Translations under genes and position numbers: made by a program | Source of the DNA: an uncultured Pelagibacteraceae bacterium | GTDB taxonomy: Bacteria > Pseudomonadota > Alphaproteobacteria > Pelagibacterales > Pelagibacteraceae | Length of the DNA: 64,000 bases | Assembly: GCA_902596925.1 (NCBI GenBank) | Contig: CACJVT010000006.1 | Span: forward strand, 28,631-92,630 | Reading direction: 5' to 3' | The notes under the pieces: generated by a model | Database searches by the model: none | The model's input: only the letters and a program-made list of their open reading frames with translations | Told to the model about the DNA's origin: nothing | In this document: in pieces, positions 7,201-10,025 of the stretch | Layout of the letters: the number at the start of each line of letters is the position of its first letter | How positions within the stretch are numbered: the first letter of the stretch is position 1

Positions 7201-7688
7201 ATAATGATAAAATGAACTCAAATATTGCCGCAACTTTATTAAAAATACAGGAGAGAAAAACAGCCAAAGGTAATTCTTATGCTGTTTTAAAATTGACTGA
7301 TCTAACTAGTGTTTTTGAATTATTTATTTTTTCTGAAGTTTTAGAGAAAAATCGAGATCTATTGAAAGAGGGATCATCAATAATATTAACTTTAGCAAAA
7401 TCTATTTCAGATGAGGAGAATCGATTTAAAAGAATAAATGTTCAGAAAATAGCCTCGCTTTCAGAATTGATAAACAAGCCGATTGAGGAAGTGCTTTTCA
7501 ATTTAAAATCATTAAAGGAATTAAACGAAATTTCAAAAATTATCCCTAATGATGGAAATACAGTTGTTAAAATTAGATTGAGAGACCAAAACAATGAATT
7601 AGACTTTAAGCTAAAAAATAAAAGAAAAATCGATAGGAAAATGTTAAATATAATCAGAAATAAGGAGATTTCTGCCATTATAAGATAA
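4272..7688 (+). CDS. dnaE: DNA polymerase III subunit alpha
   Basis: 1138 aa, PDFDIDFCEEKRD, GPGRGSGAGSLVAW, FNKSHAAAYA motifs. Confidence 0.97.
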   Translation: MQKSNFENFNHLKIHSQFSICEGAIKLDDLKDISKDNKIKAIGLCDTSNLCGALEFAEKLSKSGSQPIIGTQINFKLGDTTGLIPLFALNEDGYKTIIKLSSLSFLKNDELSEPHLDFDELLNKNKGVAIFSGTVNGFFGQLFNKGKFTEIHEIFLNLKDNYGDRFYIEIQRHGDLNEKEFEKFNLTSSKKLDIPLIATNEVFYIDKDMHEAHDALICIKNKTYVNEKNRVRFSNQHYLKTNSEMVDLFADLPVALENNYNFPFRCNFRPLSSKPILPNISSDKGVSADEILKKNSLDGLNKKFIKLLNLNEKDFLSDKNYLKYKDRLDHELEIIIKMNYASYFLIVSDYIKWAKENDIPVGPGRGSGAGSLVAWCLSITDVDPIKFNLIFERFLNPDRISMPDFDIDFCEEKRDLVFEYLTRKYENSVAHIITFGKLKARMVIRDVGRVLGLAYGFVDSISKMIPFDPSRPQNLTECIAGEPRLQKLINEDSRVKKLTDLSLKLEGLNRNVATHAAGVVIADKELTEMVPLYKDAASDLLLPSTQFDMYSAENAGLIKFDFLGLKTLTVINNTQKLIRKKDKKFNIENINFEDQKVFDLLSSGKTVGLFQIESAGMREALMQMKPNHIEDIIALVALYRPGPMSNIPVYNDCKHGKKTPDYLHPLLEDILRPTYGVIIYQEQVMQIAQKLSGFTAGQADILRRAMGKKKRAELEKQKQSFISGAVNNGISKDVAAGIFLKIEPFAEYGFNKSHAAAYAIISYQTAYLKTYYPKEFIAASMTMDISNQNKLSEFYEELKRLNIEIVRPDINECYADFRTDGEKFYYALGAIKAVGYEAVSNIVEERLKNGKFSSINNFLNRVNPKDINKLQLEGLVKAGAFDNISSNRQSLFNSIPNFITKSKNIHENKSINQIDLFGENNSQDNEIIMNIDDWKFEERLSKEFESVGFFISDHPLNQFKEIFKDYNINDYLNFNSDNDKMNSNIAATLLKIQERKTAKGNSYAVLKLTDLTSVFELFIFSEVLEKNRDLLKEGSSIILTLAKSISDEENRFKRINVQKIASLSELINKPIEEVLFNLKSLKELNEISKIIPNDGNTVVKIRLRDQNNELDFKLKNKRKIDRKMLNIIRNKEISAIIR

Positions 7689-7740
7689 TTTTAAGCTTGT
7701 TAAATAAACAAAATCTTTGTAAATAGATTTCTAATTTAAA

Positions 7741-7819
7741 CAAAAACGCACACAGTTTTTGGTTTTATACCTCCGGTCCTTAATTGGAAATAACTGTGGT
7801 GGCTTAACCGGGAAAAAAT
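7741..7819 (+). promoter_or_regulatory. Structured rpsB leader: CACAGTT/AACTGTG helix, loop CCGGT to ACCGG pseudoknot next to the SD, and an alternative CAAAAAC/GTTTTTG hairpin
   Basis: Complementary segments 7751-7757 with 7792-7798; 7773-7777 with 7807-7811; 7741-7747 with 7755-7761. Confidence 0.65.
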
Positions 7820-8620
7820 ATGAAAATACCTGAAATTACAATTCAACAATTATTAGAAGCCGGTGTTCACTTAGGACACAAAACTTTAAGATGGAACCCA
7901 AAAATGAAGAGGTATATTTTTGGCAAAAGAGACTCTATTCACATAATAGATTTAACCCAAACTTTAGAATTGATTAAAGTAGCACTTGAAAAGATACATC
8001 AAGTAATCTCAAATAACGGAAAAGTGTTATTTGTATCAACAAAAAAACAAGCCTCTGAAGCAATTGCAGAAGTAGCGAAAGAAACTGATCAATATTTTGT
8101 TAATTATAGATGGTTGGGTGGAATGTTAACAAATTGGGGTACTATTTCAAATTCTATAAAAAAATTAAAAAAGTTAGAATTAGATTTAGTTGCAGAAAAT
8201 AGAGGTTTTACAAAAAAAGAGCTTCTTAAAATGAGTATCAAAAAAGACAAATTACAAAGATCTTTAGGTGGCATTTCAGAAATGAAAAAAGTCCCAGATT
8301 TAGTTTTTATAATTGATACCAATTATGAGTCACTTGCTATTCAAGAGTCAGTCAAATTGGGAATACCTATAGTTGCAATACTTGATAGTAATTCTAATCC
8401 AGATGGGATTGATTTTCCAATTCCAGGAAATGATGATGCAAGAAGAGCAATCGATTTATATTGTAATCTTATTAAAGAAACAATTATTTCAGCGAAAGAC
8501 TCAATACCAGTTGAAGAAAAAAAGGACACAAAAAACAAAGAAAATAAATCAAAAACTATCCAAGAAATAGATAGAGATAAATTAGAAAAAAAATTTTCTG
8601 AAAAAAAAACTATTAATTAA
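7820..8620 (+). CDS. rpsB: 30S ribosomal protein S2
   Basis: [35 protein letters not shown]. Confidence 0.97.
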
Positions 8621-8621
8621 T

Positions 8622-9473
8622 ATGAGCGATATAGAGAAAGTTAAAAAATTAAGAGAAGCGACAGGTGCCGGGTTTAAGGATTGTAATTCAGCAATTAAAG
8701 AGTCAAATGGAGATCTGGACAAAGCTATAGAGATTTTAAGAATAAAGGGTATTTCTAAAGCTTCAAAAAAAATGTCCAGAGAAGCTAAGGAAGGAGTTGT
8801 TGCAATAAGCGGCGATGAAAAAAAAACTTCAATAATAGAAGTCAACTGTGAAACAGATTTTGTAGCTAAAAATGATGATTTTATTAATTTTGTTAAAGAA
8901 TTGAGTGAGCTGAATAATCAAAATAATTCAAATATTGAAAAGCTCAGATCAACTAAAATGAAAAATGGATCTTCAGTAGATGATACACTCGTTGCTTTAA
9001 TTGCTAAGATTGGCGAAAAAATCACAATTGGACAAACTAAAACGATCTCTAATTCTTCATCTGTTAATTATCGATATCTTCATACAGTGGTAAAAGATAA
9101 TTTAGCTAAATTAGCTGTTGTAGTTTCTTTAGAAACTAAAGAAAATTCTGAAACTGTAAAAACTTTTGGAAAACAATTGTCAATGCATATAGCTGCATCA
9201 AATCCATTAGCTCTAGACTCAAGTTTAATTGAAAAATCAATAATTGATAAAGAGCAAGAATTGATCACAGAGGAACTTAAAAATTCTGGAAAACCTGAGG
9301 ATATTGCTAAAAAAATTAGTCTAGGTAAAATGAATAAATTTAAAGAGGAAAATGCTCTTTTAACCCAAGCTTGGGTAATGGAACCAAAAAAGAAAGTTCA
9401 GGACGTTTTAAAGGAACTTGCTATTAATGATCTGAAAATTAAGGAGTTTAGCAGAATTAAAATAGGCGAATAA
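8622..9473 (+). CDS. tsf: Elongation factor Ts
   Basis: [31 protein letters not shown]. Confidence 0.97.
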
Positions 9474-10025
9474 ATGTTCGATGAAAAATCACATAGCCTT
9501 AAGATGGATAAAGCGATTGAAGTTTTTTCCAAAGAATTATCTTCATTAAGAACAGGAAGAGCAAACTCTGCAATGCTAGATTTGGTTAAAGTAGATGTTT
9601 ATGGTCAACAAATGCCTATTAATCAAATTGGGAGCATTACAACACCTGAACCCAGAATGATTAATATTCAAGTGTGGGATCAAAATAATGTGCCCTTAGT
9701 AGACTCAGCTATAAAAAAATCAGAATTAGGACTGAATCCACAGATAGATGGTCAACTAATTAGATTGCCAATACCGGAGCTTAATGAGGAGAGAAGGACA
9801 GAGCTCAAGAAATTAATCAAATCAATGGGAGAAAAATGTAAAATTTCAATTAGAAATATAAGAAGAGATGCAAATGAAGAATTAAAGAAGCTTTTAAAAA
9901 CTAAAGAAATAGGTGAAGATGAAGAGAAGTCATTCGAAAAAAATGTTCAAAATATTACTGATAAACATATTGCAACTGTCGATGAAAAAGTTTCAAATAA
10001 AGAAAAAGAAATAATGACCATATGA
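9474..10025 (+). CDS. frr: Ribosome recycling factor
   Basis: LRTGRANSAMLD, NIRRDANEELKK. Confidence 0.96.
   Translation: MFDEKSHSLKMDKAIEVFSKELSSLRTGRANSAMLDLVKVDVYGQQMPINQIGSITTPEPRMINIQVWDQNNVPLVDSAIKKSELGLNPQIDGQLIRLPIPELNEERRTELKKLIKSMGEKCKISIRNIRRDANEELKKLLKTKEIGEDEEKSFEKNVQNITDKHIATVDEKVSNKEKEIMTI

Follow-up and report, generated by a model that had tools for sequence, protein, structure and literature searches.

In the window, the whole 64,000-nucleotide stretch of DNA analyzed here, dnaE ends with a stop at 7688 and rpsB begins at 7820; the leader that separates them is the rpsB motif RF01815 as it occurs in SAR11. Because it matches RF01815 and the motif was described in 2009 from "Candidatus Pelagibacter ubique," it is already known for the SAR11 lineage. 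The leader folds into a P1 helix and a pseudoknot, and this arrangement is conserved before rpsB. With a probability of about 0.78, we read it as an mRNA element that binds excess uS2 and represses the translation of rpsB and tsf, the pseudoknot occluding initiation. The features of the locus are collected in Table 1.

Table 1. Features of the rpsB leader and its surroundings (positions in the window)
Feature	Position	Strand	Sequence or basis
Putative promoter	7696-7725	+	Conserved blocks, CTTGTT at 7696-7701 and TTTGTAAATA at 7716-7725
Competing hairpin, 5' arm (initial annotation)	7741-7747	+	CAAAAAC
Competing hairpin, 3' arm (7755-7757 common to P1)	7755-7761	+	GTTTTTG
P1, 5' strand (A7750 bulged)	7747-7757	+	Rfam RF01815 alignment; compensatory changes
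P2, three pairs GGU/ACC (7761-7763 with 7769-7771)	7761-7771	+	Invariant in 29-leader alignment
Pseudoknot, 5' strand (junction J2-3), UCCGGU	7772-7777	+	CCGGT in 208/213 leaders, CCTGT in 5/213
P3, two pairs CC/GG (7778-7779 with 7786-7787)	7778-7787	+	Third pair in some relatives
P1, 3' strand	7792-7801	+	Compensatory changes, pair 7755-7794
Pseudoknot, 3' strand, ACCGG(G), 8 nt before start codon, at Shine-Dalgarno position	7807-7812	+	Compensatory change; spacing comparison
rpsB, ribosomal protein uS2, presumed repressor	7820-8620	+	ATG at 7820, 266 aa
tsf, elongation factor Ts, presumably in the same operon as rpsB	8622-9473	+	Sequence and rpsB-tsf order

Identity and conservation of the leader

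The genome belongs to SAR11 (Pelagibacteraceae), and its closest relatives by rpsB protein are all SAR11. In a permissive Rfam scan RF01815 (rpsB) was matched at 7747-7828 over the complete model (1-132 of 132) with 37.0 bits, corresponding to E-values of 6.6e-6 with 351 nt searched and 4.9e-6 with the genome searched. The window leader has a higher AU content than the model consensus and is shorter, and for this reason it falls under the curated cut-off of 40 bits, so that a default Rfam scan is silent on it. Of 99 SAR11-family genomes sampled, 55 had a match at E <= 0.001 and not one reached the cut-off; across the class Alphaproteobacteria the cut-off was passed by 18 of 76 genomes sampled. 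In their 2009 description of the motif (PMC2704228), Meyer et al. gave it a P1, a P2 of three pairs, a P3 of two pairs, and a pseudoknot in which J2-3 pairs with the extension that follows P1; a further report of it comes from SAR11 strain HIMB5 (PMC6429828). The window leader shares P1, the short P2 and P3, and the J2-3 pseudoknot with its 3' extension, and it lies directly before rpsB, in keeping with the location of RF01815 members directly before rpsB or tsf. The initial annotation, which was made from the sequence alone, was unsure whether the leader was catalogued, a point settled by the Rfam search and the 2009 description; all of the sequence strings it cited are present where it had placed them, with the rpsB ATG at 7820.

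Upstream of the leader, the two putative promoter blocks are present in 96 of 115 upstream regions. The gap between the two search blocks is 15 nt in 91 of these 96, and the distance from the blocks to GCACACA is 21 nt in 66 of them, which places the blocks at a near-fixed distance from P1. A sigma-70 consensus scan and a terminator scan found nothing. If the blocks are a promoter, the transcript would start at about 7733, upstream of all helices. At the other end of the operon, tsf is followed directly by frr at 9473-9474, with no pyrH between them. PyrH (TIGR02075) was not found above its curated cut-off in the window genome or in nine other SAR11-family genomes; there were only weak TIGR02075 matches in longer reading frames, which are probably other amino acid kinases.

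For the comparative analysis 213 distinct leaders and their rpsB genes were assembled, with a tree, from 80 loci found by rpsB protein and from further SAR11 genomes. The extraction pattern demanded the core strings ACCTCCNGTCC and GGCNNAACNGG and left only the fifth variable position free; the invariance of these core bases is therefore partly built in. In a separate alignment of 29 leaders, double changes were counted and compared with slid partners and shuffles. Four pairs had double changes in this alignment, and none did once the partners were slid.

P1 pairs CACAGTT (7751-7757) with AACTGTG (7792-7798). A G-C pair stands at 7755-7794 in 152 leaders, A-T in 59 leaders, and G-T in the other 2; double changes fall on 5 branches of the tree, compared with 0.2 expected under the tree-based null. 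One double change was found at pair 7756-7793, and the remaining core pairs are invariant across the 213 leaders; in the 29-leader alignment, C-G is replaced by T-A at pair 7753-7796 in two leaders (L003 and L080). The helix continues outward, where CGC (7747-7749) pairs with GTG (7799-7801) and A7750 is bulged. Its terminal pair T7757-A7792 is formed in just 87 of 213 leaders and is not conserved. The P1 of the initial annotation (7751-7757/7792-7798) was thus right in its pairing, which the compensatory changes support, and its extent is to be refined at both ends. The three-pair P2, described as such for "Cand. P. ubique" (PMC2704228), and the two-pair P3 are paired in 29 of 29 aligned leaders, so that the leader family has the three-stem junction of RF01815 as well as its P1 with conserved pairing. 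The P3 pair 7780-7785 had 3 double-change branches against 0.1 expected among the 213 leaders.

The pseudoknot is formed by CCGGT (7773-7777) and ACCGG (7807-7811), and its strands match in 213 of 213 leaders, as RF01815 requires. Pair 7775-7809 is G-C in 208 leaders and changes in a compensatory manner to T-A in 5, and the other pseudoknot pairs are invariant. When 7700-7819 was put through dinucleotide shuffles, an H-type arrangement of equal quality arose in 0.4% of them, compared with 15.6% for a perfect 7-bp hairpin with a loop of 3-10 nt; on the sequence alone, therefore, only the pseudoknot exceeds chance. When every pair of columns was scanned for covariation across the genus against a tree-based null, only the P1 pair 7755-7794 was prominent (E ~0.2 on the strict scale of that scan). 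The structured leader with a pseudoknot beside the rpsB start that the initial annotation had proposed is confirmed by the RF01815 match and by compensatory changes. The covariation check suggested there turned up such changes in P1 and the pseudoknot of 213 SAR11 leaders that the tree-based null did not yield.

The start site and proposed control by uS2

The GGGA before the start codon, taken in the initial annotation for the Shine-Dalgarno sequence, is not a clear one: G7810 and G7811 are bases of the pseudoknot strand, and the sister genera include several relatives that read CCGGAAAA, with no GGG at this site. Other Alphaproteobacteria have AACCGG followed by AAAAGGAG or a similar sequence and after it the ATG; a separate Shine-Dalgarno of the AGGAG type thus stands between the pseudoknot and the start codon, which are 11-20 nt apart. 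Most SAR11 leaders have no AGGAG, and the pseudoknot ends about 8 nt from ATG (4-10 nt in relatives). Most SAR11 leaders have thus lost the separate Shine-Dalgarno, and this loss, a lineage difference, brings the pseudoknot 3' strand into the Shine-Dalgarno position, so that pseudoknot strand and initiation site coincide. A few SAR11-family genomes (L247, L249, L250, and L260) retain AAAGGA at 10 nt. The 16S rRNA of the window genome still terminates in ACCTCCTTTCT, with ACCTCC kept. Even so, Shine-Dalgarno-like 4-mers were found before just 5 of the 54 open reading frames of at least 150 aa in the window (mean of shuffles 2.5). As a side observation, the 16S anti-Shine-Dalgarno recurs letter for letter within the pseudoknot junction, as ACCTCC at 7769-7774; in the AGGAG-bearing Alphaproteobacteria, the junction ACCTCC could pair with the Shine-Dalgarno and compete with the pseudoknot.

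For this leader, excess uS2 would bind and stabilize P1 and the pseudoknot. Because the pseudoknot 3' strand stops 8 nt short of the AUG, it would directly block the loading of 30S subunits, and repression would reach tsf through the operon. As newly made 30S subunits draw off uS2, the pseudoknot would open and rpsB would be translated. Autoregulation by S2, already put forward in the initial annotation, is the best explanation in view of the RNA family, the fold, its position, and the control by uS2 in Escherichia coli, where uS2, helped by bS1, represses rpsB-tsf through the 5' UTR (review PMC10931766). The E. coli leader (Aseev et al. 2008, cited in that review) precedes the same operon, and the repressor and the output are presumed to be the same. 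However, the E. coli operator excludes the ribosome binding site, and the review calls the mechanism unclear (PMC10931766); direct occlusion may therefore not apply everywhere. The S15 (rpsO) leaders of E. coli and mycobacteria are likewise cases of autoregulation by a ribosomal protein with a pseudoknot near the start codon (PMC10931766), but with another protein and another fold; the analogy is one of mechanism only.

The proposed competing 5' hairpin

The initial annotation had further proposed a switch between two folds, in which a 5' hairpin excludes P1. What the 2009 paper says on rpsB (PMC2704228) makes no mention of such a hairpin. In the window sequence all seven of its base pairs are perfect, and its predicted energy is -4.2 kcal/mol when isolated, compared with -14.3 kcal/mol for the P1 element. 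Predicted folding of growing transcripts gave the 5' hairpin as the minimum-energy fold until 7796 and P1 thereafter. This is the course that a two-state mechanism would take: the hairpin (7741-7747/7755-7761 or shifted by one) would form first and block P1 and the pseudoknot, leaving the start site open, and uS2 or time would then shift the RNA to the P1-pseudoknot fold. We consider this mechanism unlikely on the comparative evidence.

Among the 23 closest leaders the 7-bp form is kept in 13, and no other leader in the clades examined has it. Relatives carry TTAACAC/GTTGTT or TTAATAC/GTTATT instead, for which pairing is possible in the register shifted by one. In that register C-G, T-A, and A-T combinations are all seen. 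Over the 213 leaders, however, pair 7745-7758 is at chance: 94 leaders are paired (null 78), and there are 6.5 double-change branches compared with 6.6 expected under the tree-based null. The pair is outside the top 45 of the genus-wide covariation scan, the double-change counts for the hairpin in the 29 leaders are within those of the shuffles, and covariation exceeds chance in neither register across the genus. Covariation of 7745 and 7758 had been suggested by the 80 loci and was not upheld by the larger leader set.

The strongest figures for the hairpin come from a clade of 129 leaders around the window, which was picked after looking and whose null tends to disrupt pairing: pair 7745-7758 is formed in 89 leaders compared with 47 ± 15 under the null (P 0.002), and the hairpin energy is -2.91 compared with -1.28. 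Outside this clade the pairing is rare. The association between 7745 and 7758 reached a likelihood ratio (LR) of 26.5, compared with 27.8 and 26.9 for neighboring columns of the same arm that are unable to pair. Since non-pairing columns attain equal association, block-wise changes between clades suffice to account for it. A Pagel test of correlated evolution for 7745-7758 (p ~3e-5) was discounted as evidence, as non-pairing controls gave equal values. The hairpin in the 129-leader clade is more likely incidental, and it does not appear to be clearly supported by related genomes. The two-fold switch is not supported: the 7-bp hairpin is confined to immediate relatives and its covariation is at chance across the genus. 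A combined scheme, which we regard as quite unlikely, would make the SAR11 rpsB leader a Shine-Dalgarno-less regulator with the pseudoknot strand in place of the Shine-Dalgarno as the controlled site; in part of the genus a 5' hairpin formed during transcription would in addition delay P1 and allow some time for translation before uS2 can act.

Other explanations and significance

Pseudoknots near start sites can also aid the binding of the ribosome or of bS1, and the conserved fold might in that case act independently of uS2, for example as a structured landing site for the ribosome or bS1 that aids initiation on mRNA lacking a Shine-Dalgarno. High affinity for pseudoknots is ascribed to bS1 (PMC10931766), and the scarcity of Shine-Dalgarno-like 4-mers before the long reading frames of the window (5 of 54) makes other initiation aids plausible. 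However, the same RNA family stands before rpsB in many Alphaproteobacteria that do bear a Shine-Dalgarno, and repression by uS2 through the rpsB leader has been shown in E. coli (PMC10931766), which together make a uS2-independent role distinctly improbable. That the elements are chance inverted repeats in AT-rich intergenic DNA would fit the unremarkable folding energy of 7735-7835 alone (z -0.82) and the frequency of 7-bp hairpins in shuffles, but the rarity of the H-type arrangement in the same shuffles, the RF01815 match, and the compensatory changes leave this a negligible prospect, already contradicted for P1 and the pseudoknot; the competing hairpin may still be such a repeat.

The leader can be removed from the list of unknowns; it had looked uncatalogued since the Rfam cut-off excludes all of the SAR11-family genomes sampled. 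Default annotation will miss RF01815 in SAR11, the very lineage from which the motif was described. The main part of the finding is ordinary and already known, and the Shine-Dalgarno loss and a possible clade-limited 5' hairpin are two small additions of modest interest. Although it is a modest difference between lineages, the loss of the Shine-Dalgarno makes autoregulation by uS2 through direct occlusion testable in a very small regulator.
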